A stretch of DNA of 64,000 nt from Protaetiibacter mangrovi (lineage in GTDB: Bacteria > Actinomycetota > Actinomycetes > Actinomycetales > Microbacteriaceae): positions 588,306 to 652,305 of the forward strand of contig NZ_JANTHX010000007.1 in assembly GCF_024752305.1 (NCBI RefSeq), written 5' to 3'. Position 1 is the first letter of the stretch. Every line of letters starts with the position of its first letter. Both the position numbers and the translations under genes were made by a program. A model generated the notes under the pieces. It did no database searches, had not been told where the DNA came from, and saw nothing but the letters and a program-made list of their open reading frames with translations. Below are positions 13,231 to 50,136 of the stretch, in pieces.

Positions 13231-13250
13231 CTTCTGCGTAGGATGTGCGG

Positions 13251-14351
13251 GTGACCCGAGCACTCCGCGCCTGCCTCGCGGCTGTCGCGACTCTCGCGCT
13301 GCTTGTGGGCTGCGCGGCACCCGGCGCGTCTGATCCGGTCACGCCGTCGACGGGGATCGCCGATGACCGACCGCTCGCCGAGCTCGATCTCTATCCCGAT
13401 CCGCGAACGGTGGAAGGGCCCAGCACCGCGGTCGTCGCGGACGCGGAGATCACCCCGATCGCCGACGACCCGGTGCAGACCTTGCCCGCCACTGTCGTCT
13501 CCCACGACCCCGGCGGTGATCGCGAGGTGCGGGTGACCGACACCTCGCGCGTGCTCGCGCTCGACCTGGCCGGCTCGCTCGCGGCGACGGTCTGGGGACT
13601 CGGCCTCGGTGACTCGCTGGTCGGCCGCGACATGTCGACGACCTTCCCGGGAACCGAGGACCTTCCCGTGGTCACATCCGGCGCCCACGCCGTGAACGCC
13701 GAGAGCGTGCTGGCCCTGCGCCCGACGCTCGTGCTGACCGACGGCACGATCGGCCCGCGCGACGTGCTCGAGCAGCTGCGCGCCTCGGGCGTGACCGTCG
13801 TGTTCCTTGCCAACGAGCCGAGCTTCGACGGCGCGGCACAGCTCGCCCGCGACGTCGCCGCGGCGCTCGGCGTCGGCGAGCTCGGCGAACGGCTCGCCGA
13901 CCGGATCACCGCAGAGGTCGACGACACGATCGCGCAGATCGCGCAGATCGCCCCGGCCTCCGACGACGCGAAGCTGCGTGTCATGTTCCTCTACCTGCGC
14001 GGCGGATCCGGCATCTACTACCTGTTCGGCGAGGAGTCCGGCGCGAGCCGCCTCATCACCGCCCTCGGCGCGCGCGATCTCGCGAGCGAACTCGGATGGT
14101 CGGGCGAGGTGCCGATGACCGACGAGGCGATGATCGCGGCCGACCCCGACCTCATCCTCGTGATGACCGACGGACTCGCCTCGGCCGGCGGCGTCGACGG
14201 CCTGCTCGCCGCGAAGCCCGCGATCGGCCTGACGACGGCCGGCGAGCATCGCCGTTTCGTCGACATGGCCGACGGGGTGGTGCTGAGCTTCGGGCCGCGC
14301 TCGGCCGCAGTGCTCGACGCGCTGGCGCGCTCTCTCTACGCGGCGCCCTGA
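13251..14351 (+). CDS. hmuT: Heme ABC transporter substrate-binding lipoprotein (HmuT-like)
   Basis: 366 residues. An N-terminal signal ends in the lipobox LLVG-C (Cys21), so the protein is anchored outside the membrane. The periplasmic-binding-protein type 2 fold is visible: VLALDLAGSLAATVWGLGLGDSLVGRDMS, then TSGAHAVNAESVLALRPTLVLTD split by short turns, and DPDLILVMTDG near the C-terminus, as in heme-binding HmuT proteins. GTG 13251 was chosen because TAGGAT lies 6 nt upstream (leaderless) behind a DtxR box; GTG 13245 is in frame but abuts the hexamer. No permease or ATPase follows, so it is an orphan component needing a transporter encoded elsewhere. A siderophore-binding role is possible. 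Confidence 0.75.
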   Translation: MTRALRACLAAVATLALLVGCAAPGASDPVTPSTGIADDRPLAELDLYPDPRTVEGPSTAVVADAEITPIADDPVQTLPATVVSHDPGGDREVRVTDTSRVLALDLAGSLAATVWGLGLGDSLVGRDMSTTFPGTEDLPVVTSGAHAVNAESVLALRPTLVLTDGTIGPRDVLEQLRASGVTVVFLANEPSFDGAAQLARDVAAALGVGELGERLADRITAEVDDTIAQIAQIAPASDDAKLRVMFLYLRGGSGIYYLFGEESGASRLITALGARDLASELGWSGEVPMTDEAMIAADPDLILVMTDGLASAGGVDGLLAAKPAIGLTTAGEHRRFVDMADGVVLSFGPRSAAVLDALARSLYAAP

Positions 14352-14419
14352 GGCGCGCACGCGGCGCGCTCCTGGTCCACAGACAGGTCGGGCCCTAGGC
14401 TCGGAGCAGGGGGTGGCAG

Positions 14420-15481
14420 ATGACTGAGGAGGCACGCCGGGTTCTCGTCGTCGACGACGATCCGGATGTCGCGCTGTTCGTGAAGACGGTGCTGGAGCGC
14501 CGTGCCGGATGCGTGGTGCAGACCGCGACCGATGGGCCGTCGGCTCTCGCCGCGGTCGGATCGTTCCGTCCCGACGTGCTCGTGACCGACATCCAGATGC
14601 CCGGCATCTCGGGGCTCGACCTGCTGACGGCGGTGCGCATCGACACCCCCTGGATGCCGGTCGTGATCATGACGGCGCACGTCTCGGTCGACTACGCCGT
14701 GTCGGCTCTGCGCGCGCAGGCCGACGAGTTCCTCACCAAGCCCATCGACTCGACCCGCCTCGTCGAGGTCGTGACGCGCCTGGCCGACGAGGGCCGCGCG
14801 CGCCGCGAGGCGGTCGCCCAGAAGCAGTACGTGCTCGCCGTCGGCGCGCATCCCGACGACGTCGAGATCGGCGTCGGCGGCGTCCTGGCGGCGCACCGGG
14901 CCGCCGGCGACGAGATCACGATCCTCACCCTCTCCCGGGGTGCCCGCGGCGGCGACGCCGACAACCGCCAGCACGAGTCGCTCGCGGCCGCCGAGCTGCT
15001 CGGAGCCCGGCTGTTCCTCCAAGACCTCACCGACACCGAGATCTCGGGTGGCGGCGGCACCGTGAGGCTCATCGAGGAGGTCGTGCGCGAGGTGGTGCCG
15101 ACGATCGTCTACACCCACACCAACCACGACCGCCACCAGGACCACCGGGCCGTGCACGAGGCGACGATCGTCGCCACCCGCAGCATCGACACGGTCGCCT
15201 GCTATCAGAGCCCCTCGGCCACGGTCGACTTCCGCCCCACCCGATTCGTGTCGATCGACGGCTTCGTCGACCGCAAGCTCGAGCTGCTCGCCTGCTTCCG
15301 CTCGCAGGCCGAGAACCGCGCCTACCTCGCCCCCGACTTCGTGCGCGCGACCGCGCGCTACTGGTCGCGTTTCAGCAGCAGCGAGAACGTCGAGCCCCTC
15401 GAGATCGTGCGCGAGACCTCCGACCTCTCGACCCCTGTGCGCGATCGGGTCGACGTCCGCCGCGACCGGGAGGTGCGATGA
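14420..15481 (+). CDS. Response-regulator receiver fused to PIG-L-type deacetylase
   Basis: 353 residues, two domains. Residues 6-122 form a CheY-like receiver with acidic pocket D12-D14, phosphoacceptor Asp57 (VLVTDIQMPG), Thr85 and Lys107 (TKPID). Residues 136-340 form a LmbE/PIG-L metal-dependent deacetylase with AHPDD at 143-147 and the second metal motif HQDH at 239-242. PIG-L enzymes remove N-acetyl groups from GlcNAc-containing substrates using zinc. There is no DNA-binding domain, so phosphorylation probably controls enzyme activity directly. It is the first gene of the operon that ends with a histidine kinase. The ATG at 14420 has a GGAGCAGGGGG ribosome site and TAGGCT at 14396-14401. 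The stop overlaps the next start (ATGA). Confidence 0.9.
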   Translation: MTEEARRVLVVDDDPDVALFVKTVLERRAGCVVQTATDGPSALAAVGSFRPDVLVTDIQMPGISGLDLLTAVRIDTPWMPVVIMTAHVSVDYAVSALRAQADEFLTKPIDSTRLVEVVTRLADEGRARREAVAQKQYVLAVGAHPDDVEIGVGGVLAAHRAAGDEITILTLSRGARGGDADNRQHESLAAAELLGARLFLQDLTDTEISGGGGTVRLIEEVVREVVPTIVYTHTNHDRHQDHRAVHEATIVATRSIDTVACYQSPSATVDFRPTRFVSIDGFVDRKLELLACFRSQAENRAYLAPDFVRATARYWSRFSSSENVEPLEIVRETSDLSTPVRDRVDVRRDREVR

Positions 15482-16464
15482 CCCGCGTGCTCGTCACCGG
15501 CGCGGGCGGAGCAGCCGGGGTCGCCGTGATCCGCTCGCTGCTGGCGCGCGACGACGTGACGGTGTTCGCGGCGGATATGGACGGGTGGGCCGCCGGCCTC
15601 TACCTGGTGCCGGCTGCGCAGCGCCGCCTCGTCGAACCCGGGCGCTCGGACGCGTTCGTGCCGGGGCTGGCCGCCCTTGTCGCCGACGACGCCCTCGACG
15701 TGGTGATCTCGACCGTCGACGTCGAGCTCGAGGCCCTCGCCACCCGCCGAACCGAACTGACCCCTGCGGTGCTGGCGGCCCCGAGCGCCGACACCCTCGC
15801 CGTCGCGCTCGACAAGCTCGCGCTCGCGGAGCGCTGCACGCCCACCGTCAACGTCCCGCGCACGGTGCTCGCGGGGCCCGACGCGCTCGCCGTCGACTGG
15901 GAGTTCCCGGTGTTCGCCAAACCCCGGCGCGGAGCCGGCAGCCGCGGTGTCCGGGTGGTGCCCGACCGGGCGGCGCTCGAGCGGCTGCCCGTCGACGAGG
16001 ACCTCCTCGTGCAGGACCTCCTGCCCGGCGAGGAGTACTCCGTCGACGTCCTCGCGGATGCGGACGGCCGCGTGGTGGCCGCCGTGCCGCGCATCCGTGC
16101 CCGGGTGGACTCGGGCGTCGCGATCGCGGGGCGCACCGTCCACGACCCGGAACTGGAGGAGACGGCGGCCGCGGTGGCGCGGGCGATCGGCCTCGTCGGC
16201 GTCGCGAACGTGCAGCTGCGCCGCGACCGCGAGGGACGCGCCGCCCTGCTCGAGGTGAACCCCCGGTTCCCCGGCGCCCTCCCCTTGACGATCGCCGCCG
16301 GGGTCGACATCCCGTCGCTCGTCGTCGACCTGTTCACGGGGGCGCGCCTGCCGGAGCACGTCGGCTTCCGGGAGCTCGCCTCGGTGCGCTTCCTGGAAGA
16401 CGTCGTGCTCGACCCGCGCGAGGTGCTCGAGTCGGCGCACGCAGCCCACCAGGACGAGGACTGA
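15478..16464 (+). CDS. ATP-grasp carboxylate-amine ligase-like protein
   Basis: 328 residues. An N-terminal Rossmann-like preATP-grasp domain (RVLVTGAGGAAGVAVIRSLL) leads into an ATP-grasp fold: FPVFAKPRRGAGSRGV near 141-157 (ATP-binding lysine and glycine loop), DLLVQDLLPGEEYSVDV, and the metal-binding end LLEVNPRFPGALPL near 259-272. The layout resembles carbamoyl-phosphate-synthase-like and PylC-like ligases that join a carboxylate to an amine. It starts 4 bp inside the preceding gene and is followed 2 nt later by the PHP gene. In this operon it could attach an amino acid or similar group to a sugar or lipid; this is inference. Confidence 0.8.
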   Translation: MTRVLVTGAGGAAGVAVIRSLLARDDVTVFAADMDGWAAGLYLVPAAQRRLVEPGRSDAFVPGLAALVADDALDVVISTVDVELEALATRRTELTPAVLAAPSADTLAVALDKLALAERCTPTVNVPRTVLAGPDALAVDWEFPVFAKPRRGAGSRGVRVVPDRAALERLPVDEDLLVQDLLPGEEYSVDVLADADGRVVAAVPRIRARVDSGVAIAGRTVHDPELEETAAAVARAIGLVGVANVQLRRDREGRAALLEVNPRFPGALPLTIAAGVDIPSLVVDLFTGARLPEHVGFRELASVRFLEDVVLDPREVLESAHAAHQDED

Positions 16465-16466
16465 CC

Positions 16467-17186
16467 ATGCACCCCGCTCTGCGCGGCGACCACCACGTGC
16501 ACTCGACGTTCTCGGACGACGCGGTCTCGACGCTCGCCGAGAACGTCGCCGCCGCCCATGCCGCCGGACTCACCGAGCTGCGTCTCGTCGACCACGTGCG
16601 CCGCGACACCACCTGGGTGCCCGAGTTCCTCGCCGCCGTCGCGGGGCTCGAGGTGCCCGACGGGCTCGTCGTGCGCACCGGGGTCGAGGCGAAGATCCTC
16701 GACGCGGCCGGCGGGCTCGACATCCCGGCCGACCTCGCCGGTGTCGACCGCATCCTCATGGCCGACCACCAGTTCCCCGGAACCGACGGACCGTGGTCGC
16801 CCGCCGCGACGGTCGAGCGCCTGGCGCAGGGCCTCGCACCGGACGACGCGCTCGACCTGCTGATCTCCGGACTGGTCGGGGCGATGCGCCGCCACCCCGG
16901 CAACCAGCTCGCGCACTGCTTCTCGATCCTTCCCAAGGTGGGCCTCTCCGAGGAGTCCCTCGGCGCCGAACGGCTCGCGGAATGGGCGGGCGTCGCCGCC
17001 GCGACCGGAACGGCCGTCGAGGTCAACGAGAAGTGGGCGTGCCCGGGGCCGCAGGCGCTCGCCGCCGCCCACGCCGCCGGGGTCGAGCTGGTCGCGTCGA
17101 CGGACAGTCACGTCGCCTCCGACGTGGGACGCTACGAGCGGGTGATCCCGCTGCTGGCGGGTCTCGACGACGAGGGGGCGGTGTGA
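16467..17186 (+). CDS. PHP-domain phosphoesterase
   Basis: 239 residues. The PHP metal-site motifs are present in order: GDHHVHSTFSDD (H10, H12, D17), VDHVRR near 41, GVEAKI near 72, MADHQFPG near 99, LAHCFS near 149 and the C-terminal STDSHV near 217. PHP enzymes hydrolyse phosphoesters with a trinuclear metal site. Family members include histidinol phosphatases and the CpsB/YwqE protein-tyrosine phosphatases that act with polysaccharide systems. The length fits a stand-alone phosphatase. It lies in the coupled operon; its stop and the next ATG share one base (TGATG). The substrate is unknown; a role in glycan assembly or its control is inferred from context. Confidence 0.8.
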   Translation: MHPALRGDHHVHSTFSDDAVSTLAENVAAAHAAGLTELRLVDHVRRDTTWVPEFLAAVAGLEVPDGLVVRTGVEAKILDAAGGLDIPADLAGVDRILMADHQFPGTDGPWSPAATVERLAQGLAPDDALDLLISGLVGAMRRHPGNQLAHCFSILPKVGLSEESLGAERLAEWAGVAAATGTAVEVNEKWACPGPQALAAAHAAGVELVASTDSHVASDVGRYERVIPLLAGLDDEGAV

Positions 17187-18682
17187 TGGACGCGTTCTGG
17201 CAGGTGGCGTACGACGCACTGGTGGTGGTGCTCCTGGTCCTGGTCGCCACCGGCGCGGTCCCCGTGGTGACGGCCGCCATCCACTTCCTCGTCGTGCCGC
17301 TGCACGCGTTCATCAACCACTACGGCAAAGCCGAGCCGTTCACCCCGAACGTCGCCGTGCTGGTGCCCGCCTGGAACGAGGGAGCGGTCGTCGGCACGAC
17401 CATCGACCGGCTGCTCGAACTGGACTACCCCGCCGAGGCGCTCCGGGTCTACGTGATCGACGACGCCTCCACCGACGACACCCCGGATGTGGTGCGGGCG
17501 AAAGCCGCCGAGCACGCCGGCCAGGTGTTCCTGCTGCAGCGGCAGCAGGGCGGCCAGGGCAAGGCGCACACCCTGAACCACGGGGTGCGGGTGGTGCTCG
17601 GCGAGGACTGGGCCGAGGCGGTGCTCATCATGGACGCCGACGTGATCTTCACCCACAGCTCCCTGCGCCGCATGACGCAGCACCTCGCCGACCCGCAGGT
17701 GGGCGCGGTGTCGGGCTACATCGCCGAGGGCAGTCGCGACCCCAACTACATGACGAGGTTCATCGCCATCGAGTACGTGCTCGCACAGCTCGCCTCGCGC
17801 CGGGCGCAGAACGTGCTGGGCGCCCACGCCTGCCTCGCGGGCGGCGCGCAGCTGCACTCGCGCGCGAACCTCGAGGCGATCGGCGGCGCCATCCCGACCG
17901 GCACGCTCGCCGAGGACACCGTGGCGACCTTCGAATCGCAGCTGCACGGGCGGCGCATGGTGTTCGAGCCGCACGCCGTGGTGCTGGCCGAAGAACCCGG
18001 CACGATCGACGCGCTCTGGAAGCAGCGGCTTCGCTGGGCCCGCGGCAACGTGCAGGTGAGCTCGATGTACCGCAAGGTCTGGTTCCGCTGGGGCCGCGGC
18101 GTGCACCACCTCGGCAACATCGCCTTCGGGGCGTCCTGGTTCAGCATCTTCCTGCTGCCGTTCGCGATGATCCTCTCGTCGATCGGGCTGGTCGGCCTGC
18201 TGCTGCTCGAGAGCGACCTGGCGCAGCTCGTGTTCCGGGCGCTGTGGATCACGGCGGCCCTCACCTACATCTTCTCGATGGTGCTCGGGGTGCAGCTCGA
18301 CGGGCGGGTCGGACGGCTGTCCTGGCGCGAGGCGTTCCTGTTCCCGGGTGCGATCTCGTTCGTGGTGATGGTCGCGGCGCTCTTCCCCGGCCTCATCGAG
18401 GTGCAGCTGCCGGCGCTGTTCGGCATGAAGCTGCTGCCGGAGGGGTACTTCTGGCTGACCCTCGGCATCTACGTCTGGATCTCCGCGGCGATGGCGGGGG
18501 CGGCGCTCGCGCGGATGATCGAGAACACGAAGGCCGGACGCTTCCTGTCGCCGCTGCTCATCTACCTCGTGGGATACGGTCCGCTTCTGTGCGCCATCAC
18601 GGTCGACTCGTACCTCAAGGAGTGGCGCAAGGCGGATACCGTCTGGATCAAGACCGAGAAGACGGGGAGGGTCCTGGGATGA
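17186..18682 (+). CDS. Processive family 2 glycosyltransferase (polysaccharide synthase-like)
   Basis: 498 residues. An N-terminal membrane segment (about 10-40) is followed by a GT-A domain with VLVPAWNEG at 58-66, DD at 92-93 (YVIDDASTDDTP), the metal motif DAD at 150-152, ED at 243-244 and QRLRW at 280-284. The D, DxD, ED, QxxRW set is typical of processive synthases such as PgaC/IcaA, hyaluronan and cellulose synthases. Four or five C-terminal membrane helices follow (about 305-480). A deacetylase gene lies upstream and a 49-residue membrane protein follows directly, as in PNAG systems (PgaB/PgaC/PgaD). The polymer is not identifiable from sequence. Confidence 0.85.
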   Translation: MDAFWQVAYDALVVVLLVLVATGAVPVVTAAIHFLVVPLHAFINHYGKAEPFTPNVAVLVPAWNEGAVVGTTIDRLLELDYPAEALRVYVIDDASTDDTPDVVRAKAAEHAGQVFLLQRQQGGQGKAHTLNHGVRVVLGEDWAEAVLIMDADVIFTHSSLRRMTQHLADPQVGAVSGYIAEGSRDPNYMTRFIAIEYVLAQLASRRAQNVLGAHACLAGGAQLHSRANLEAIGGAIPTGTLAEDTVATFESQLHGRRMVFEPHAVVLAEEPGTIDALWKQRLRWARGNVQVSSMYRKVWFRWGRGVHHLGNIAFGASWFSIFLLPFAMILSSIGLVGLLLLESDLAQLVFRALWITAALTYIFSMVLGVQLDGRVGRLSWREAFLFPGAISFVVMVAALFPGLIEVQLPALFGMKLLPEGYFWLTLGIYVWISAAMAGAALARMIENTKAGRFLSPLLIYLVGYGPLLCAITVDSYLKEWRKADTVWIKTEKTGRVLG

Positions 18683-18828
18683 GCGAGCAGTCTCGTCACG
18701 ACCGCACCGAGGCGTGGGCCGACCTGCGCCGCATCGCACGACGCGAGTACCTGCTGCTGGTGCAGGCGGGGATCGCCGTCGTCGTCCTCGTCGCGATCGT
18801 CTGGGTGCGACAGGCGTTCTTCGCGTGA
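18679..18828 (+). CDS. Small single-pass membrane protein (49 aa)
   Basis: MSEQSRHDRTEAWADLRRIA precedes a charged stretch and one membrane helix (about 27-43, LVQAGIAVVVLVAIVWV), ending RQAFFA. It is coupled on both sides: ATGA overlap with the glycosyltransferase and GTGA overlap with the response regulator. That arrangement makes it a real gene despite its size. By position it could be an accessory subunit of the glycosyltransferase, analogous to PgaD/IcaD, but there is no sequence evidence for homology. Confidence 0.75.
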   Translation: MSEQSRHDRTEAWADLRRIARREYLLLVQAGIAVVVLVAIVWVRQAFFA

Positions 18829-19178
18829 GCGGACTCCCCGTCGCGCTCGTCGTCGAAGACAGCGACGACCAGGCCGGGCTGCTGCGACGCTACCTCGAAC
18901 GCTCCGGCTGCGACGTCGTCGTGGCCGCGAGCGGCGAGAAGGCACTCGAGCTGCTCGAGACGGTCAGCCCCGTGCTCGCCATCGTCGACCTGATCCTCCC
19001 CGGCATCTCCGGGGAGGAGTTCGCCGAGCACCTGCGGCGCACCCATCCCGACTGCCTGCTCGCGATCACCTCTGTGCACGACGCCACCCGCTATCCGGAA
19101 GCGGACGCGGTGCTGCCGAAGCCGTTCACCGGCGCGCAGGTCGCGGCCGTCGCCGAACGGGCGATCGGGTCGCCGTGA
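18825..19178 (+). CDS. Stand-alone response regulator receiver
   Basis: 117 residues, a single CheY-like domain: acidic residues E11-D12, phosphoacceptor Asp55 in LAIVDLILPGISG, Thr/Ser switch in ITSVHD and the conserved lysine in VLPKPF. No output domain. It starts on GTG 18825 overlapping the previous stop and ends overlapping the kinase start, so it is made together with the kinase. It may act as a phosphate shuttle or sink competing with the receiver-deacetylase fusion. Confidence 0.9.
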   Translation: MSGLPVALVVEDSDDQAGLLRRYLERSGCDVVVAASGEKALELLETVSPVLAIVDLILPGISGEEFAEHLRRTHPDCLLAITSVHDATRYPEADAVLPKPFTGAQVAAVAERAIGSP

Positions 19179-20923
19179 CGCGGGCCGAGGGGCGGGTCTG
19201 GGAGCGCTGGTACGCGTTCCTCGACACCCCGAGCCCCCTGCTCAAGCAGGCGCCGACCGCGACCGCACTCGTGCTCGCGATCGTGATCACGCTGGTCACC
19301 CCGGACCTCGTCTTCGACCCGCTTCCCGCCGCGCTCGTCGGGATAGGGGCGGTCGCGGCGGCGACGTCGATGGCGCTCGTGTTGAGCCTGCAGCGCACGC
19401 CGGTACCCGAGTGGACCGTGCTCACCATCCCGATGATCGACATCCTCGGGCTCGGCCTGTTCCGGGCAGGCACCGGCGGCACCGGCTCGATCTACGCCGC
19501 CCTCATCCTGATGCCCATCGTCTGGCTCGCCGCCGCCCCGGGCTTGCGGAACGTGATCATCGTGGTGGGGCTGTCGTCGCTCGCGCTCTCGCTGCCCTAC
19601 CTGGCCGACCCGCCCGAGAGCGGTTCGCAGTGGCTCCGTGTCATCGTCTCGCCCGCGATCTTCGCCGTGGTGGCGGTGATCATCAACGAGCTGTCGCGCC
19701 TCGGCCGCGTCCGTGCCGAAGAGGCGGAGCGGCTGGTCGCCGAACGGTCGGATGCGCTCGAGGAGACCATGCGCGCCGTCGCGAAGCTGCAGGACAGCGA
19801 GCAGCGCTACCGCGAGCTGCTCGAGATGTTCCGCAGCGTCTGGAACGCGACGACCGCCCAGGCCGTCGTCGCGACCGACCACGACGGGCTCGTGGTGGCC
19901 TGGAACCCGGGTGCGACCGAACTGTTCGGCTTCGAAGACCTCGACGCCGAGTACGCGATGCGGGTGCAGGAGCTGTTCTCGCCCGACACCGTCGCCATGC
20001 TCGACACGGAGGCGCTGCGCGTGCGCGACGACGACCCGCTCTCACCGGGCGTGCGTTCCCTGTTCGCGCTCGCCGACACCGGCATCCCGGTCGTACGCGA
20101 GTTCCCGATGACCCGCGAGGACGGGTCGACCGTGCCGGTGCGCCTCACCATCACCATCCGTCGCGACGGTACCGATGCGCGGGTCGGCTACCTGCTGGTC
20201 GCGACCGACGAGACGCGCGCCCACGAGGTCTCCCGCATGAAGGACGAGTTCGTCGGCATGATCTCGCACGAGCTGCGCACCCCGCTCAGCTCGATCCTCG
20301 GCTACCTGGAGCTCCTGCGCGACGACACCGAGCATCCGCTCACCGAGGAGCAGCTGCAGTTCCTGTCCGTCGCCGAGCGCAACGCGCGCCGGCTGCTGCG
20401 GCTCGTCGGCGACCTCCTGTTCACGGCGCAGGTCGAGTCGGGGCGCTTCCCGCTCGACAAGCACGAGGTCGACCTCGCCGCCGTCGTGCGTGCGGCGATC
20501 GAGTCGGCGCAGCCGGTCGCCGACACGGGCGGCGTCGGCATGGTGAGTGCCGTACCGGAACGCGAGGTGCGGGTCCTGGCCGACCCCGTTCGGATCGGCC
20601 AGGCGGTCGACAACCTCATCTCGAACGCGCTCAAGTTCACCCCGAGAGGCGGCGACGTCGTGGTCACCCTCACCGCCGACGAACAGGCGGCGACGATCAG
20701 CGTGCGCGACACCGGCCTCGGCATCCCGCCCGACGAGGTCGACCGGTTGTTCACCCGCTTCTTCCGCGCGAGCACCGCCACCCGGAACGCGGTGCCGGGC
20801 GTGGGACTCGGCCTCAACATCACCAAGGCGATCGTGAGCGCGCACGACGGCGAGATGGATGTCGCGAGCGAGGAGGGCGTCGGCACGGAGTTCCGCATCG
20901 TGCTGCCCCGCGGCACGCACTGA
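19175..20923 (+). CDS. Membrane sensor histidine kinase with PAS domain
   Basis: 582 residues. Five or six membrane helices occupy about 28-170, followed by a coiled linker (172-215), a PAS domain (about 215-345, ending GYLLVATDETRAHEVSRM), and HisKA with SHELRTPLS (His365). The C-terminal HATPase has VDNLISNALKFTPRGG (N box), DTGLGIPPDEVDRLF (G1) and GVGLGLNITKAIV (G2). It is the last gene of the seven-gene operon, coupled by GTGA overlap. Both receivers in the operon are natural targets. The many-helix sensor resembles MHYT/MASE-type input but the ligand is unknown. It converges with the aldo/keto reductase gene. Confidence 0.9.
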   Translation: MTRAEGRVWERWYAFLDTPSPLLKQAPTATALVLAIVITLVTPDLVFDPLPAALVGIGAVAAATSMALVLSLQRTPVPEWTVLTIPMIDILGLGLFRAGTGGTGSIYAALILMPIVWLAAAPGLRNVIIVVGLSSLALSLPYLADPPESGSQWLRVIVSPAIFAVVAVIINELSRLGRVRAEEAERLVAERSDALEETMRAVAKLQDSEQRYRELLEMFRSVWNATTAQAVVATDHDGLVVAWNPGATELFGFEDLDAEYAMRVQELFSPDTVAMLDTEALRVRDDDPLSPGVRSLFALADTGIPVVREFPMTREDGSTVPVRLTITIRRDGTDARVGYLLVATDETRAHEVSRMKDEFVGMISHELRTPLSSILGYLELLRDDTEHPLTEEQLQFLSVAERNARRLLRLVGDLLFTAQVESGRFPLDKHEVDLAAVVRAAIESAQPVADTGGVGMVSAVPEREVRVLADPVRIGQAVDNLISNALKFTPRGGDVVVTLTADEQAATISVRDTGLGIPPDEVDRLFTRFFRASTATRNAVPGVGLGLNITKAIVSAHDGEMDVASEEGVGTEFRIVLPRGTH

Positions 20924-20935
20924 TCGCGGGGCGCC

Positions 20936-21826
20936 TCAGTCGGTGGGCGGTGCCGGCGGCGTGCCGAGCGCGTCGAGCGCCGCCCAGAACTCCACGTCGA
21001 CACTCGCCTGCACGTGGCGCTCGAGCTCGGCGAGGCGCTCCGTCGAGTTGACGCCCACCACGGTCGAATGGATGCGGGGATCCCGCAGCGAGAAGTGCAG
21101 AGCCGCCGTCGCGGGCTCGACACCCCACTCGGCGCACAGCGCCCGGAAGCGGTCGACGTGCGCCAGGAACTCGGCGCTCGGCTCCGAGTAGCCGTAGGTG
21201 CGGCCGCGGAAGTTGTCGCCCGCGAGGATGCCGGCGCCGAAGGGCGCGGCGTTGAACACGGTCATGCCGCGCTCGGTCGCGAGATCCAGGATCCGCTCGG
21301 CGGAGCGGTCGACGACCGTGTACCGGTTGTGGGTGAGCACCGCGTCGAACACGTCGGTCCGCACGTACTCCTCCACCAGCTCGCGGCGACCCGCGGCGAT
21401 GCCGATCGCCCCGATCCGGCCCTGCTCCCGCAGCCGGATGAGGGCGTCGACCGCCCCGCCGGGCGCCATCGCGTCGGTCACCGAGATCGTGTACGGATCG
21501 TGCAGGTGGTAGAGCGGAAGCGTCTCGAGGCCGAGCCGCTCGGTCGACTCCTCGAAGCTGCGTCGCATCCGGTCGCCCGTGAAGGCACCGGTCACCGGGT
21601 CCTGGTCGCCCTTCGAGAACACCACCCGCTCCTCGGGCAGGCCGCCGATCCCGCGGATCGCCTCACCGAGCAGGCGCTCGCTCTCGCCGTCGGCGTAGTT
21701 GTTCGAGGTGTCGGCCTGGTGGAACGTCGACGACAGGATCGCCGTGGCGAGGGCGAGATCCGCGCCGGGCCGCTTGCCGAGGCCCGAGGTGCCGACGGTG
21801 ACGGGTTCGAGTTCGAGGTGGAGCAT
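20936..21826 (-). CDS. Aldo/keto reductase (D-threo-aldose dehydrogenase type)
   Basis: 296 residues, TIM-barrel NAD(P)H oxidoreductase. Tetrad candidates are visible: Asp and Tyr in QADTSNNYADGESERLLG, Lys in VVFSKGDQD and His in LYHLHDPY. The C-terminal part RDPRIHSTVVGVNSTERLAE is typical of the family. The longer loop after the lysine and the HDPY motif point to the D-threo-aldose/L-fucose dehydrogenase subgroup. It is a single-gene unit. A CTCCGCGGAG palindrome (21849-21858) lies upstream, but no clear promoter is visible. Confidence 0.8.
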   Translation of the reverse strand: MLHLELEPVTVGTSGLGKRPGADLALATAILSSTFHQADTSNNYADGESERLLGEAIRGIGGLPEERVVFSKGDQDPVTGAFTGDRMRRSFEESTERLGLETLPLYHLHDPYTISVTDAMAPGGAVDALIRLREQGRIGAIGIAAGRRELVEEYVRTDVFDAVLTHNRYTVVDRSAERILDLATERGMTVFNAAPFGAGILAGDNFRGRTYGYSEPSAEFLAHVDRFRALCAEWGVEPATAALHFSLRDPRIHSTVVGVNSTERLAELERHVQASVDVEFWAALDALGTPPAPPTD

Positions 21827-41194: not shown

Positions 41195-43366
<2,172 letters not shown>

Positions 43367-43381
43367 GATTCTCCGGGTAAG

Positions 43382-43404
43382 AGTTGAGTTGTGGTGACTC
43401 AACT
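43382..43404 (-). promoter_or_regulatory. HAIR (HspR operator) of clpB
   Basis: AGTTGAGT, seven bases, ACTCAACT: a perfect inverted repeat matching the HspR consensus CTTGAGT-N7-ACTCAAG except at the outermost base of each core. It starts 16 bp upstream of the clpB start codon and overlaps the promoter. Confidence 0.9.
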
Positions 43405-43561
43405 TTAGCGCGCCGCGCCCGCGATTGCACGAGCCATCTGCCATCGCCCGTCCACGCGATGCGGATTTCACCCCGCCGGGGTGACGGGGGCCCGCACCCG
43501 CGGTGTAGAAAAGCCCCAAGGCGTCTCGCATGGGAGGTGCCGCCATCTCGAAAGGATCGCC

Positions 43562-43951
43562 ATGACCTTCCTGAGCTCCCTCTGGGACTTCATCTGGCTG
43601 CTGTTCTGGACCTTCGCGTTCGTGGCCTACCTGTTCGCGATCTTCGCGATCATCGGCGACCTGTTCCGCGACCACAAGCTCAACGGATGGTGGAAGGCGC
43701 TCTGGATCATCTTCCTGATCTTCGTGCCGTTCCTCACGGCTCTCGTCTACCTCATCGCGCGCGGCAAGGGCATGGCCGAGCGCAGCGCGGCCGCCGCGGC
43801 GTCCAGCCAGCGCGCGGGCGAGGCCTACATCCGCGAGGTCGCCGGCACGGCGACCCCCTCCGACGAGATCGCCAAGGCGAAGGCGCTCCTCGACGCGGGC
43901 GCGATCACCCAGGCGGAGTTCGACGCCCTGAAGGCCAAGGCGCTCGGCTAG
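43562..43951 (+). CDS. PLD-nuclease-N/SHOCT-type membrane protein
   Basis: 129 residues. Two membrane helices (about 8-33 and 45-66, with [22 protein letters not shown] between and in them), then a short coiled region and a C-terminal SHOCT motif ([28 protein letters not shown] at about 101-128). SHOCT domains are small oligomerisation or binding modules; the function is unknown. ATG 43562 has AAAGGA upstream. Its stop overlaps the stop of the convergent channel gene (CTAG). Confidence 0.85.
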
Positions 43952-44658
43952 TCCAGCTGCTCGATCGACGGCGCCGCATCCGGTCCGGGTGCGGCGCCGT
44001 CGGCGTCCGCGGACTCGCCCTCGTGGTGTCGGATGCGGTCGCCGAGGTAGGTGACCACGATGGCGGAGGTCACGCCGATGATCGCGACGCCGCCGATCAT
44101 GAGCACCACCGCCCAGAACCGCCCGAGCACCGTGACCGGCGCGTAGTCGCCGTAGCCGACCGTGAAGACCGTCACGCACGCCCACCAGATCGCCTCGCCG
44201 AACGTCGTGATCGTCGCGTCGGGCGAGGTCCGTTCCGCGACCAGCACGGCGAGCGCGATCGAGTAGACGAAGACCACGGCGAAGGCGGCGGTCATCACCC
44301 CGATCCGCACCCGCTGGTAGGCGCCGCCCCGGTCGCGCAGGAGCGGCACGCGGACCACGTGGCGCAGCTGCACCACCGGGCGGAACACGGGCAGGAGCGC
44401 CGCGACCGCATCGGGGATGCTCGCCAGCACGAACGTCCGGCGGGGCTTCGCGAGCGCCAGGCGCACCACGTAGTCCACGATGAACGTCAGCCAGATCCCG
44501 ATCAGGAGGACGGCCGCCACACCCCAGAGCGCCGAGTGGGTGTCGTCGACGAGCACCACGATGCTCCAGGCGATCAGGTAGAGGAACGCGAGCACCAGGA
44601 ACGGCACCCGCGTGCGCTCCTCCCAGCGCACGCGTCGCGCGTCCCGGTCGGAGGTCAC
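43948..44658 (-). CDS. Potassium-channel-like protein, last gene of the dnaK operon
   Basis: 236 residues from GTG 44658, which overlaps the hspR stop by 4 bp; an ATG at 44685 is in frame but lies inside hspR. Helices at about 20-40 and 45-65, an amphipathic linker, helix at about 120-145, a pore with the selectivity filter TVGYGDY, and a last helix [20 protein letters not shown]. It is a voltage-gated-like potassium channel of six-helix or shortened layout. No RCK domain; the tail is acidic. Cotranscription with dnaK-grpE-dnaJ-hspR implies heat control of ion flux. Confidence 0.85.
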
Positions 44659-45080: not shown

Positions 45081-46048
45081 CCGCGGGCCCTCTCGATGAG
45101 CTCCTCGCGCGGGTTCTCGTCCGGCAGCGCGGCCGCGAAGTCCTCGAGCTTCTTCTTCGCGTCGCCCGACAGGTGGCTCGGCACCACGACGTGCACCGTG
45201 GCGAGCAGGTCGCCGACGGATCCGCTCGTCGTGACGCCGCGCCCCTTGACCCGCAGCACGCGTCCGCTCGGGGTGCCGGCGGCGACCCGCAGTCGCACCG
45301 GATCGCCGTCGAGCGTCGGCACCTCGATGGTCGCGCCGAGCGCCGCCTCGGTGAACGTGATCGGAACGTCGACCCGCAGGTTCGCGCCGTCGCGTTCGAA
45401 CACCGGATGCGGCCTCACCGAGACCGTGAGCACGAGGTCGCCGGCGTCGCCGCCGTCGGGGCTCGGCTGCCCCTTGCCGCGCAGCTTGATCTTCTGGCCG
45501 TCGCGCACGCCCGCCGGGATCTTGACCTTCGTCGCCTTGCCGCCGGGCAGCTGCAGCGTGACGGTGTCGCCGTGGATCGCCGTGAGGAAGTCGAGCGTGG
45601 TCGTCGCGGTGATGTCGGCACCCGGGGTCGGGCCGCCGTAGCCGCGGTACCCGCCCGACACGTTGCCGAAACGGCCCGAGCCGAACATGCCGCCCAGCAG
45701 ATCCTCGAAACCGCCCGCGCTGTAGCCGGTGCGCGCCCCGGGGACGCCTCCGCCGAACATGCCGCCGAAGACGTCCTCGAAGCCCTGCCCGCCGGAGGTG
45801 AACCGGGCCCCCGTGCCCATGGCGCGGATCTGGTCGTACTCGGCGCGCTCCTGCGGGTCGGCGAGCACCGCGTAGGCCTCGCTGATCTCCTTGAACCGCG
45901 CCTCGGCGGCGGCGTCACCCGGGTTGGAGTCCGGATGGTACTGCCGCGCGAGCTTGCGGTAGACCTTCTTGAGCTCGGCTTCGGAGACGTCCTTCGAGAC
46001 CCCGAGCACGGCGTAGAAGTCCTTGTCGAACCAGTCCTGGCTGGCCAT
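45077..46048 (-). CDS. dnaJ: DnaJ-family co-chaperone without zinc finger (CbpA type)
   Basis: 323 residues. J domain (1-70) with HPD at 38-40, then a Gly/Phe-rich linker with two similar segments (GFEDVFGGMFG and GFEDLLGGMFG), then two substrate-binding beta domains. The cysteine-rich CXXCXGXG zinc region is absent: not one such motif is present. It is therefore CbpA-like although it sits in the canonical dnaJ position. A second zinc-finger DnaJ is probably encoded elsewhere. Stimulates DnaK ATP hydrolysis. Confidence 0.92.
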   Translation of the reverse strand: MASQDWFDKDFYAVLGVSKDVSEAELKKVYRKLARQYHPDSNPGDAAAEARFKEISEAYAVLADPQERAEYDQIRAMGTGARFTSGGQGFEDVFGGMFGGGVPGARTGYSAGGFEDLLGGMFGSGRFGNVSGGYRGYGGPTPGADITATTTLDFLTAIHGDTVTLQLPGGKATKVKIPAGVRDGQKIKLRGKGQPSPDGGDAGDLVLTVSVRPHPVFERDGANLRVDVPITFTEAALGATIEVPTLDGDPVRLRVAAGTPSGRVLRVKGRGVTTSGSVGDLLATVHVVVPSHLSGDAKKKLEDFAAALPDENPREELIERARG

Positions 46049-46063
46049 CGGACCCCTCTCGGA

Positions 46064-46666
46064 TCAGCTGGTGGGGGGAGCGCTGACCGCGACCTTGGCG
46101 GCGCGGATCAGGCGGTCGCCGAGCACGTATCCGGTCTCGATGACGTCCTTCACGGTCTCGCCCTCGGCCTCCGGGTCGGGCAGGTGCACGACGGCCTCAT
46201 GGATGTTGGGGTCGAACGGCTCGCCGACCTCGCCGACGCGACGCAGCCCGTACTTCTCGAATCCGGCCCGCAGCTTCTGCGAGACGATCGTGAGGGGCGC
46301 GCCCTCGACGAGGTCGCCGTGCGCGTCCGCGCGATCGAGGTCGTCGATCACGGGCAGCAGCGAGCGGATCACCTCGGCGATGACCGCCTCGCGATTCGCC
46401 GCCCGGTCGCGCTCGACCCGGGTGCGGAAGTTCTTGAGGTCGGCCTGCGCCCGCGCCGCGATCTCGCGGTACTCGGCCACGAGGTCCTTCTCGGCGTCGG
46501 CCAGCAGCGCGAGATCCTCGTCGCTCAGGCCGTCGCCCTCGTCGGGCACCCGGTCGGCCGCGGGCGTCTGGGCCCGCGGCTCGCCGGTGCTCGGGTCGAT
46601 CTTCCGCTTGTCCTGGACCGTCGGCTCCTCGGCCTCGTTGTCCTCGTCGCGGTTCTTGTCGGCCAT
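46064..46666 (-). CDS. grpE: Nucleotide exchange factor GrpE
   Basis: 200 residues. Acidic, variable N-terminus (about 1-60), long helix (ALLADAEKDLVAEYREIAARAQADLKNFRTRVERD, about 55-90), helical bundle with VIRSLLPVIDDLDRA, and a C-terminal beta wing including FDPNIHEAVVHLPDPEAEGETV. It releases ADP from DnaK. The start lies 2 nt after the dnaK stop. Confidence 0.95.
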   Translation of the reverse strand: MADKNRDEDNEAEEPTVQDKRKIDPSTGEPRAQTPAADRVPDEGDGLSDEDLALLADAEKDLVAEYREIAARAQADLKNFRTRVERDRAANREAVIAEVIRSLLPVIDDLDRADAHGDLVEGAPLTIVSQKLRAGFEKYGLRRVGEVGEPFDPNIHEAVVHLPDPEAEGETVKDVIETGYVLGDRLIRAAKVAVSAPPTS

Positions 46667-46668
46667 GC

Positions 46669-48519
46669 CTACTTCTTCTCGTCCTCGTCGTCCACGATCT
46701 CGGCGTCGACCACGTCCTCGTCGGAGGCGCTCGTGCCGCTCGTCGGGCTCGGCCCCTCGGCCGCCTCGGAGCTGGCCTGGTAGATCGCCTCGCCGAGCTT
46801 GGTCTGCGACTCGCCCAGCTTCTCGAACGCCGACTTGATGGCGCCCTCGTCCTCGCCCTGGAGGGCCGTCTTGAGCGACTCGATGTCGGCCTTCACCTCG
46901 TCCTTGACGGGCTCGGCGATCTTGTCCTCGTTCTCGGAGATGAGCTTCTCGAGCGAGTACACGAGCTGCTCCGCGTTGTTGCGCACCTCGGCCGCCTCGC
47001 GACGGGCCTTGTCCTCCGCGGCGTGCTCCTCGGCCTCGCGCACCATGCGCTCGATGTCGTCCTTCGGCAGCGACGAGCCGCCGGTGATCGTCATCGACTG
47101 CTCCTTGCCGGTGCCCTTGTCCTTGGCGGACACGTGCACGATGCCGTTCGCGTCGATGTCGAAGGTCACCTCGATCTGCGGCACGCCGCGCGGCGCCGGG
47201 GCGATGCCCGTGAGCTCGAACGTGCCGAGCGCCTTGTTGTCGCGGGTGAACTCGCGCTCGCCCTGGAAGACCTGGATGGCCACCGAGGGCTGGTTGTCGT
47301 CGGCGGTCGTGAAGGTCTCGCTGCGCTTGGTCGGGATCGCCGTGTTGCGCTCGATGAGCTTCGTCATGATGCCGCCCTTGGTCTCGATGCCGAGGCTGAG
47401 CGGGGTCACGTCGATGAGCAGCACGTCCTTGCGCTCGCCCTTCAGCACGCCGGCCTGGAGGGCGGCGCCGACGGCGACCACCTCATCCGGGTTGACGCCC
47501 TTGTTGGGCTCCTGACCGCCGGTGAGCTTCTTGACGAGCTCGGTGACGGCCGGCATGCGGGTCGAGCCTCCGACGAGCACGACGTGCGCGATGTCGGCGA
47601 CCTTGATGCCCGCCTCCTTGATGACGTCGTCGAACGGCTTCTTGGTGCGGTCGAGCAGGTCGGAGCTCATCTGCTCGAACTGCGCGCGCGTGAGCGTCTC
47701 GTCGAGGTTCGCGGGGCCGTTCTCGGTGAGCGAGAGGTAGGGCAGCTGGATGCTCGTCGACATGTTCGACGAGAGCTCCTTCTTGGCCTGCTCGGCGGCC
47801 TCCTTGAGGCGCTGCAGCGCGATCTTGTCCTTCGAGACGTCGACGCCGGTGGTGTCCTTGAACTTCTTGATGAGGTGCTCGACGATGCGCTGGTCCCAGT
47901 CGTCGCCGCCGAGGCGGTTGTCGCCGGAGGTGGCGCGCACCTGGATGGTCGAGAAGTCGTCGTCCTTGCCGACCTCGAGCAGGGACACGTCGAAGGTGCC
48001 GCCTCCGAGGTCGAAGACCAGGATGAGCTCGTCCTCCTTGCCCTTGTCGAGGCCGTAGGCGAGAGCCGCCGCGGTGGGCTCGTTGATGATGCGGAGCACG
48101 TTGAGGCCCGCGATCTCGCCGGCCTCCTTGGTGGCCTGGCGCTCGGCGTCGTTGAAGTACGCGGGCACGGTGATGACGGCGTCGGTCACGTCCTCGCCGA
48201 GGTACTGCTCGGCGTCGCGCTTGAGCTTCTGGAGGATGCGCGCCGAGATCTCCTGCGGCGTGTACTTCTTGCCGTCGATCTCCTTCTTCCAGTCGGTGCC
48301 CATGTGCCGCTTGACGGATGCGATGGTGCGGTCGACGTTCGTGACGGCCTGGCGCTTGGCGGTCTCGCCGACGAGCACCTCGCCGTCCTTCGTGAAGGCG
48401 ACGATCGAGGGGGTGGTGCGGAAACCCTCGGCGTTGGCGATGACGGTGGGTTCTCCACCCTCGAGGACGGCGACCACGGAGTTGGTGGTTCCGAGGTCGA
48501 TACCGACTGCTCGTGCCAT
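46669..48519 (-). CDS. dnaK: Chaperone DnaK (Hsp70)
   Basis: 616 residues. ATPase domain with [75 protein letters not shown] and [12 protein letters not shown]. The substrate-binding domain has [11 protein letters not shown] and the C-terminal lid ends in acidic residues ([14 protein letters not shown]). ATG 48519 with AAGGAG upstream. First gene of a five-gene operon. Promoter elements TTGACT (48608-48603), 17 nt and CAAACT (48585-48580) lie between two HAIR sites. Confidence 0.97.
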
Positions 48520-48559
48520 GTTCTGTTGCTCCTTGTAGAACCGGTGAATGCGCGCTCAG

Positions 48560-48582
48560 AGTTGAGCCGCAACGTATCAAGT
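48560..48582 (-). promoter_or_regulatory. Degenerate second HAIR site, dnaK proximal
   Basis: AGTTGAGC, seven bases, TATCAAGT. The left arm matches the HspR site and the right arm keeps TCAAG. It covers the expected transcription start downstream of the putative -10 CAAACT. Streptomyces dnaK also has multiple HAIRs. Confidence 0.55.
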
Positions 48583-48613
48583 TTGCACCCCGTCCGGGGG
48601 GAAGTCAAGAAAC

Positions 48614-48634
48614 GTTGAGTCGCTCCGACTCAAC
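48614..48634 (-). promoter_or_regulatory. HAIR (HspR operator) of the dnaK operon
   Basis: GTTGAGT, seven bases CGCTCCG, ACTCAAC: a perfect inverted repeat equal to the clpB HAIR arms. It lies just upstream of the TTGACT hexamer (48603-48608) taken as the -35. Confidence 0.9.
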
Positions 48635-48702
48635 TCGCCGGTGCGGACGGCGCGCCCCGCGACGATACCGCCCGTTCACCCGCCGGCAGTAGCGTTGCGC
48701 GC

Positions 48703-50136
48703 ATGACCGACCCGAACGGCGACGAGGCCGCGGCCTCCGTCACCCCTCCGCCCACCGCCGCCAACACCGGCATGATCGCGTCCATGTCACGCGGACTCCA
48801 GGATCCGGACCGCGTGGTGCCGCGCAAGCAGGTCGTCTCCTGGGCGTTCTGGGACTGGTCGACGCAGCCCTTCAACTCGGTGATCCTGACCTTCGTCTTC
48901 GCCGCCCTCTACCTCGTGTCGGACTCGTTCCTGCCCGCCGACATCGCGGCGCTGCCCGACACCGACCCGGTCAAGGAGGGCGCGCTCGCGGATCTGTCGA
49001 GCGGCTACGGGCTCGCCACGACCTTCGCCGGCATCCTCATCCTGCTGCTGGCCCCCGTGCTCGGCCAGCGGGCGGACGCGAGCGGACGCAAGAAGCGGAT
49101 GCTGCTCGTCTTCACCTACCTGCTCGCCCTGCTGCAGTTCGCGCTCTTCTTCGCCTACGCCGACCCCGCGTTCTTCTGGTACGGCGCGATCGTGCTGGCG
49201 CTCGGCGCGGTGGTGTCCGAGATCGCGGGCGTCAACTACAACGCGATGCTCGTGCAGGTCTCGACCCCGAAGACGATCGGACGGGTGAGCGGGCTCGGCT
49301 GGGGCCTCGGCTACATCGGCGGCATCGTCGCGCTCGTCATCGTCGTCGCCCTCAACGCGGTCGACTGGTTCGGCATCGACACCTCGAACGGGCTCGTCTA
49401 CCGCCTCATCGCGGTCGGCGCGGCCGTCTGGACGGTCGTGTTCTCGATCCCGCTGTTCCGCAACGTGCCCGAGGCCGCGCCGTCGGCGGAACCCGGTGCG
49501 CGCGTCGGGTTCTTCGCGGGCTACGTGGTGCTCGTGAAGGACATCGCGCGGCTCTACCGCGAGGCGCGCCCCGCCTTCTGGTTCCTGCTCGCGAGCGCCA
49601 TCTACCGTGACGGTCTCGCCGGAGTCTTCGCCTTCGGCGGCGTGCTCGCCGCGGTCGCCTTCCACTTCAGCCCCAACGAGGTGATCATCTTCGGCATCGC
49701 GGCGAACCTCGTCGCGGGCGTCTCGACGATCTTCGCGGGGCGCGCCGACGACTGGTTCGGGGCCAAGGCCGTCATCGTCTTCGCGCTCTCCGGCCTCGTG
49801 GTCATGGCGATCGTGGTGTTCGCCTTCCACGACCTCGGCACGGTGATCTTCTGGGTCGGCGGCCTCACGCTCTCGGCGTTCGTCGGGCCGGCCCAGGCCG
49901 CGAGCCGGTCGCTCCTGGCGCGGGTGACCCCGGTCGGCCGCCAGGGCGAGATCTTCGGCCTGTACGCGACGACCGGGCGCGTGGCGAGCTTCATCTCGCC
50001 GGCACTGTGGACCGCATCCATCGCCCTCTTCGGCGCCACGATCTACGGCGTGCTCGGCATCGCCCTCGTGCTGCTGGTGGGACTGGTGCTGCTGCTCCTG
50101 GTGCGCCTGCCGAGGCACGTGCGCCCCATCCGCTGA
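48703..50136 (+). CDS. UMF1/Atg22-type MFS transporter
   Basis: 477 residues, about 12 helices. QVVSWAFWDWSTQPFNSVILTFVFA split around residues 45-70 is the family opening, and GLGWGLGYIGGIVALVIV with GPAQAASRSLLARVTPVGRQGEIFGLY further on matches the UMF1 (Atg22-like) group, which includes vacuolar amino-acid effluxers in yeast. ATG 48703 with TAGCGT 7 nt upstream (leaderless). Its promoter region abuts the dnaK HAIR, but it points the other way. Substrate unknown. Confidence 0.85.
   Translation: MTDPNGDEAAASVTPPPTAANTGMIASMSRGLQDPDRVVPRKQVVSWAFWDWSTQPFNSVILTFVFAALYLVSDSFLPADIAALPDTDPVKEGALADLSSGYGLATTFAGILILLLAPVLGQRADASGRKKRMLLVFTYLLALLQFALFFAYADPAFFWYGAIVLALGAVVSEIAGVNYNAMLVQVSTPKTIGRVSGLGWGLGYIGGIVALVIVVALNAVDWFGIDTSNGLVYRLIAVGAAVWTVVFSIPLFRNVPEAAPSAEPGARVGFFAGYVVLVKDIARLYREARPAFWFLLASAIYRDGLAGVFAFGGVLAAVAFHFSPNEVIIFGIAANLVAGVSTIFAGRADDWFGAKAVIVFALSGLVVMAIVVFAFHDLGTVIFWVGGLTLSAFVGPAQAASRSLLARVTPVGRQGEIFGLYATTGRVASFISPALWTASIALFGATIYGVLGIALVLLVGLVLLLLVRLPRHVRPIR

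Follow-up and report, generated by a model that had tools for sequence, protein, structure and literature searches.

Five polymers, namely cellulose, acetylated cellulose, poly-N-acetylglucosamine (PNAG), alginate, and Pel, are described as products of bacterial synthase-dependent systems, which typically include a part binding a cyclic-dinucleotide signal, according to PMC7112194. The terms PIG-L, ATP-grasp, and response regulator are absent from its main text. The present work concerns a cassette of seven genes, designated A to G, in a 64,000-nucleotide stretch of DNA, referred to as the window, from Protaetiibacter mangrovi (assembly GCF_024752305.1, contig NZ_JANTHX010000007.1, positions 588,306 to 652,305 of the forward strand). 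The cassette associates a response-regulator receiver fused to a PIG-L de-N-acetylase (A) with an ATP-grasp ligase (B), a phosphoesterase (C), a membrane glycosyltransferase of family GT2 (D), a small membrane protein (E), a single receiver (F), and a histidine kinase (G). We read it, with a rough probability of 0.55, as a phosphorelay-gated, synthase-dependent polysaccharide cassette that most probably makes a secreted polysaccharide. No c-di-GMP-binding or co-polymerase domain was found in the seven genes by Pfam and NCBIfam, which show known domains only.

No description of a receiver-PIG-L protein or of this gene set was found in the open-access literature, including the accessible parts of PMC3281065 and PMC8407117, a scope outside which most subscription papers and bioRxiv fall. 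A study of a Pig-L deletion in C. difficile (PMC12613277) also deals with biofilm and with a response regulator gene in the neighbourhood.

The seven genes are a unit gained or lost together within the genus. In the window, the block is bounded by a solute-binding-protein-like gene on the left (13245-14351, plus strand) and an aldo/keto-reductase-like gene on the right (20936-21826, minus strand), both named by inspection. Both flank genes occur in all nine genomes of the genus, and the receiver-PIG-L gene occurs in four of them. The flank genes stand 13, 16, 34, 37, and 59 bp apart in the five genomes devoid of the cassette, and 6.3-8.7 kb apart, with the block between them, in the cassette-bearing genomes, which include three relatives of the window. 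In two of these (L175 and L176), extra DNA separates the binding-protein gene from the block. The limits of the block in the window coincide with the seven genes, all on the plus strand (14420-20923), with junctions from A to G consisting of a 4-bp overlap, a 2-bp gap, and overlaps of 1, 4, 4, and 4 bp. A promoter and terminator scan of 14300-21100 returned no match. A preliminary description, made from the letters of the window, had proposed both this near-touching single-strand arrangement, with which coordinates and Pfam domains agree, and a conserved functional unit, which the neighbourhood search supports as the genes are conserved together. Its further link to an OafA-like acyltransferase and an SGNH esterase is rejected, since homologues of these two were seen close to the fusion in no other genus (L175-L177, L093 being the same record as L175), and both genes lie outside the block gained or lost.

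The association also appears when the search starts from the synthase. A search with D only, at E 1e-70, found the GT2 gene in 14 of the 297 genomes of the order, and PIG-L, ATP-grasp, and PHP genes adjoin it in 14/14. The PIG-L is fused to a receiver in 13 of them and stands alone in one (G153); among the 13 fusions, the receiver is degenerate in G334, G400, and, by inspection, G237. At E 1e-90, the GT2 was found in 3/396 genomes of a phylum sample, including the window's own. Matches over both fusion domains are present in 25/150 genomes of the family and 17/297 of the order, so that the distribution of the cassette is patchy. A scan of named genomes gave at least 80 loci with receiver-PIG-L fusions (loci from this and other searches carry L numbers), reaching Proteobacteria and Myxococcota. 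The matches listed include Microbacterium, Leucobacter, Leifsonia, Cellulomonas, Blastococcus, Serinicoccus, Solirubrobacterales, Thermoleophilia, Acidimicrobiales, Rhodospirillales, Legionella, Marinicella, Burkholderiales, Myxococcota, and a Rhodothermales metagenome-assembled genome. Many of these loci are metagenome-assembled, and their taxon labels may be wrong. The order A-B-C-D is colinear in 57/109 distinct fusion loci (window excluded), all 57 belonging to the 92 rows from Actinobacteria sensu lato. The single receiver F (18825-19178, GTG start, 117 aa; Response_reg, 7.5e-15) is an optional part of the cassette, as it was not detected in L177, from the same genus, nor in several other loci. 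Two tandem GT2 matches (13056 and 14554) occur in one cassette (L132).

The enzyme D (17186-18682, 498 aa; Glyco_tranf_2_3, 1.2e-32) carries the QRLRW motif of membrane polysaccharide synthases and a C-terminal W-x-K-T-x-K-x-G motif that is invariant in 32 sequences. Its structural model (pLDDT 92) is closest to PcManGT, the cellulose synthase BcsA, and hyaluronan synthases; the top match, PcManGT, is a mannosyltransferase and by itself no argument for a polymer. By family, motifs, and model, D is predicted to be an inner-membrane GT2 synthase. It is followed by E (18679-18828, 49 aa), which has one membrane segment and no Pfam match. In 60 of 70 distinct cases, the GT2 gene is followed by an open reading frame of 35-100 aa that contains a membrane segment; such a frame rarely comes after the other cassette genes (4/66 for PHP, 0/77 for ATP-grasp, 0/37 for receiver F), which argues that E is a real gene. 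Three of the ten misses are Legionella loci (L144, L152, and L153) in which the small membrane protein is fused to the C-terminus of the GT2. The synthase type with its QxxRW motif and the tiny membrane partner, both recognized in the preliminary description, are thus supported.

In diderm relatives, additional proteins point to export. Homologues of a tetratricopeptide repeat (TPR) protein occur in 12 of the 30 loci L141-L170, a range including monoderms, with partial matches in L141 and L157. The gene sits inside the cassette in several Gram-negative loci, and the cassette of the window's organism is without it. In the model of the L154 protein, TPR helices extend as far as residue 212 and are followed by 14 beta strands up to residue 440; its best match in the PDB is the cellulose exporter BcsC of E. 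coli (E 7.6e-8). In NCBIfam, the same protein matches PgaA weakly (4e-8, under the cut-off), and PrsT and PilW TPRs score better. In L153, BcsB and GH81 genes lie directly upstream of the GT2, a layout also seen by inspection in L152. The diderm TPR/beta-barrel proteins, one of them modelled, may form a pore and strengthen the export reading.

The fusion protein A (14420-15481, ATG start, 353 aa) includes a receiver at residues 8-118 (Response_reg, 6.9e-31) and a PIG-L domain (3.2e-24) whose Pfam match spans residues 139-252, with family similarity to about residue 336. D13, D57, T85, and K107, the residues of a phosphorylatable receiver, are all present, and the PIG-L part carries H144, D146, D147, H239, D241, and H242 in HPDD and HxDH motifs. 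With 86.3 bits for a cut-off of 28.2, the domain can be placed in the de-N-acetylase family, and its nearest solved relatives include bacillithiol and diacetylchitobiose deacetylases. According to Pfam, neither A nor F has a DNA-binding domain, so the signal probably ends in an enzyme, as first proposed from the sequence of the window.

The conservation of this deacetylase site is linked to the surrounding genes. The site counts start from 118 loci (L033-L056, L063-L077, and L093-L171), of which L076 and L136 were dropped for want of a single match across both domains; with the window, the total is 117, and removal of 7 duplicates leaves 110 distinct fusions. Loci with a receiver alone, a PIG-L alone, or other fusions (L172 and L057-L062) stand outside the 110. 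The kinase and the module, meaning ATP-grasp or GT2, count as present where the available stretch shows tblastn similarity to the corresponding genes of the window. The PIG-L site is intact in 84/84 fusions with the module nearby versus 14/26 without it (Fisher 2.7e-9), and thus lost in 12 of the latter. When the 19 rows with less than 4.5 kb on one side are dropped, decayed sites amount to 0/67 with the module and 11/24 without. On a tree built without the PIG-L active-site columns and allowing only irreversible loss, 8/8 independent PIG-L losses fall on module-less branches, whose share of the tree length is 30.6% (P=7.6e-5), and 0/8 of these losses fall on kinase-less branches. H239 is the residue most frequently hit, with varying substitutions. 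Since the site is kept with the module and independent losses fall on module-less branches, A's deacetylase most likely works together with the ATP-grasp/GT2 module.

Some module-less fusions have another appearance. In seven loci (L049, L050, L051, L053, L055, L129, and L130), a decayed PIG-L and a canonical receiver stand beside receivers and a kinase, with the enzyme genes absent, and these proteins are apparent pseudo-deacetylase regulators. In L052, identical in sequence to L133, four histidine-kinase matches follow the module-less fusion in one stretch. Receivers fused to a SpoIIE/PP2C phosphatase in place of PIG-L occur in L057 (5816-6892, SpoIIE match tested) and, by inspection, in L058 (6170-7288); they are 55-58% identical to A's receiver.

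The kinase G (19175-20923, GTG start, 582 aa) includes PAS, HisKA, and HATPase_c domains and, by inspection, a hydrophobic N-terminal region. Across the fusions, the receiver site is canonical in 81/82 with a histidine kinase within 6.5 kb versus 14/28 without (Fisher 2.8e-9), which is suggestive of a receiver-kinase link. Receiver losses fall on module-less branches in 2/5 cases (P=0.48).

Several points weigh against a phosphorelay-gated polysaccharide cassette. The evidence consists of anatomy and co-conservation, from which we infer substrate, product, and phosphotransfer alike. For the module and catalysis, the independent-pairs sign test is not significant (median p 0.5 and 0.25), the pairs being too few and none running in the opposite direction; a count with reversible changes gives a weaker result (3/3 events, P=0.031), and 14 module-less fusions keep the active site, among them L046, L048, L052, L065, and L069. 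For the receiver and the kinase, the irreversible tree places 4/5 losses on kinase-less branches (P=0.09), the reversible count gives 3/4 events (P=0.24), and the independent pairs (0.5 one way) are not significant. Some cassettes (Legionella, alphaproteobacteria, and the Serinicoccus type) have a degenerate receiver, and phosphorylation is therefore not universal. As for export, the L154 model (pTM 0.48) aligns with BcsC at a TM-score of 0.32, and generic TPR proteins follow closely (9.2e-8). Finally, GH81 beside the L153 cassette fits beta-1,3-glucan better than an amino-sugar polymer, so that a beta-glucan product is still conceivable.

The two remaining enzymes of the cassette also keep their residues. 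B (15478-16464, 328 aa; ATPgrasp_Ter, 6.6e-32) resembles PRK12767, under that family's cut-offs, and an alignment of 78 sequences shows its K148, E259, N261, and R263 to be at least 97% conserved. In C (16467-17186, 239 aa; PHP, 1.4e-7), for which YcdX is the nearest solved structure, D8, H10, H12, D17, H43, E74, H101, H150, D213, and H215 are kept in at least 97% of 67 sequences; both alignments contain sequences picked for near full-length matches. Among the distinct named loci, 52 have both ATP-grasp and GT2, and in 50 of these a phosphatase gene lies within 1.5 kb; none was found within this distance in L144 and L155. The slot is filled by three unrelated families, PHP (42), His_Phos_1 (6), and LMW-PTP (2), and PHP was never met together with either of the others in one cassette. 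The family was checked by Pfam in L142, L151, L153, L154, and L158 and by similarity elsewhere. Because unrelated families replace each other, the slot points to a required dephosphorylation, either metabolic or regulatory.

From the computed gene set, co-conservation, and active-site residues, we infer the polymer identity, the order of the chemical steps, and the phosphotransfer. The kinase G would sense a signal and phosphorylate A's receiver, F serving as an optional second receiver. The phosphorylated receiver would switch, in a presumed direction, the fused cytoplasmic PIG-L deacetylase, which would expose an amine on a nucleotide-, phosphate-, or lipid-linked sugar precursor. Then, B may couple this amine to a carboxylate, possibly that of an amino acid, and C would strip a phosphate somewhere in the pathway, while D with its small subunit E would polymerise and extrude the product.

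In mycothiol synthesis, glycosyl transfer is followed by dephosphorylation, N-deacetylation by a PIG-L enzyme, and ligation to the amine. The four enzyme types of the cassette fit this order, and the phosphatase in 50/52 loci from three unrelated families behaves as expected of a required step. With bacillithiol and diacetylchitobiose deacetylases among the nearest solved relatives of A's PIG-L, a soluble or lipid-linked conjugate could thus be the product rather than a polymer. This is unlikely, as D is predicted to be a BcsA/HAS-type membrane synthase, an export-type barrel is found in several diderm cassettes, and BcsB stands beside one. Moreover, D is a GT2 and B an ATP-grasp protein, not the GT4 MshA-like transferase and the MshC-like ligase of the mycothiol type.

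The phosphatase and the single receiver could alternatively be signalling parts, with a phosphoprotein phosphatase like CpsB, Wzb, or SixA and a mainly regulatory PIG-L. Indeed, the PHP, LMW-PTP, and His_Phos_1 families all contain protein phosphatases, an HPt gene adjoins the His_Phos_1 gene in L142, and module-less loci lose PIG-L sites while receiver and kinase persist. The site kept in all 84 module-bearing fusions is nevertheless hard to square with a regulatory-only domain, and no BY-kinase was noticed in the inspected gene lists, no search having been aimed at one; we consider this explanation improbable.

We hold a PNAG-type system to be a poor prospect too. Here, D would be a PgaC homologue making poly-GlcNAc, with PIG-L replacing PgaB and E replacing PgaD, a kinship that the preliminary description had evoked. 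Among NCBIfam models, D matches PgaC_IcaA best (1.5e-36), E is a small membrane partner, and the diderm TPR/barrel proteins are weakly like PgaA. However, D reaches only 126.3 bits for a PgaC/IcaA equivalog cut-off of 422.3, and a cytoplasmic deacetylase could hardly reach a polymer extruded during its synthesis. No extracytoplasmic polysaccharide deacetylase of the PgaB/IcaB type is present among the seven genes, to which the search was confined within the genome, and E gave no match to PgaD/IcaD in Pfam or NCBIfam, whose sensitivity is low for so short a protein. PNAG synthesis is not known to use an ATP-grasp enzyme or a phosphatase. PNAG membership is rejected by the PgaC cut-off, and what stands of the preliminary interpretation is the conserved unit, the enzyme output, the GT2 type, and the membrane partner. 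As for a chance neighbourhood, it is ruled out by the gain and loss within the genus, the D-only search, and the colinearity in 57/109 loci.

Besides the cassette, a distant set without a receiver, in which PIG-L, ATP-grasp, and GT2 genes lie side by side, is found in L081-L088 and L091; its PIG-L has, by eye, hydrophobic N-terminal segments in L081 and L084. In L074, L134, L139, and L140, ATP-grasp and GT2 genes of this distant type are convergent to a receiver-PIG-L gene and its kinase, and no second PIG-L gene was seen within those stretches. In these four loci, the receiver-PIG-L appears to act as the PIG-L of the distant set. A conserved secreted-looking protein adjoins the distant GT2 in L140 (12938-14083), L139, L134, L074, and L081; it has no match in Pfam (L140 and L081), NCBIfam (L140), or the PDB (profile of the alignment). 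Other secreted-looking proteins, sharing by eye a STEHN motif, are encoded next to either the cassette or the distant set in L075 (12090-13895), L076 (9598-11097), and L084 (7529-8845). The secreted proteins beside L075, L076, L081, and L084 have no Pfam match, and those of L076 and L084 no NCBIfam match. Elsewhere in the window, at 42001-44000 and 46001-50000, GC falls to 0.686 and the AT skew is strongly negative compared with most of the window.

If the phosphorelay-gated polysaccharide cassette is real, a phosphorelay would gate polymer chemistry through direct action on a sugar deacetylase. With relatives in Actinobacteria, Thermoleophilia, Proteobacteria, and others, the cassette may define an overlooked matrix polymer. 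Its small size, its relatives in ordinary soil bacteria, and the natural presence/absence pairs in one genus make the product directly testable. More tentatively, and with odds short of even, it could represent a sixth, overlooked kind of synthase-dependent exopolysaccharide system, present in several phyla. In such a system, phosphorylation would switch a cytoplasmic deacetylase that makes a free-amine sugar precursor, and an ATP-grasp ligase would load this precursor with an amino acid or another carboxylate ahead of polymerisation. The product would be a new N-acylated amino-sugar polymer, with two-component control exerted on the enzyme itself.

Compared with synthase-dependent exopolysaccharide systems, the cassette shares a membrane GT2 with a small partner, TPR/barrel export-type proteins in several diderms, and a compact operon that is gained or lost whole, whereas the cytoplasmic receiver-PIG-L, the ATP-grasp enzyme, the phosphatase, and the phosphorelay parts set it apart. 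PgaABCD and IcaABCD likewise have a small membrane partner, a deacetylase, and a GT2, PgaC being the nearest to D among NCBIfam models, but D scores under the PgaC cut-off, the deacetylase is a PIG-L and not a polysaccharide deacetylase, and the cassette has an extra ligase and phosphatase. The mycothiol and bacillithiol pathways (MshA-MshB-MshC and BshA-BshB-BshC) also rely on PIG-L deacetylation followed by amine ligation, a step that is presumed for the cassette; they differ by a GT4 where the cassette has a GT2 membrane synthase, by MshC or BshC where it has an ATP-grasp, and by a deacetylase devoid of a receiver. Finally, CheB, PleD, and response regulators of the PP2C/SpoIIE type resemble A in having a receiver fused directly to a catalytic domain, whereas the output of A is a PIG-L de-N-acetylase.

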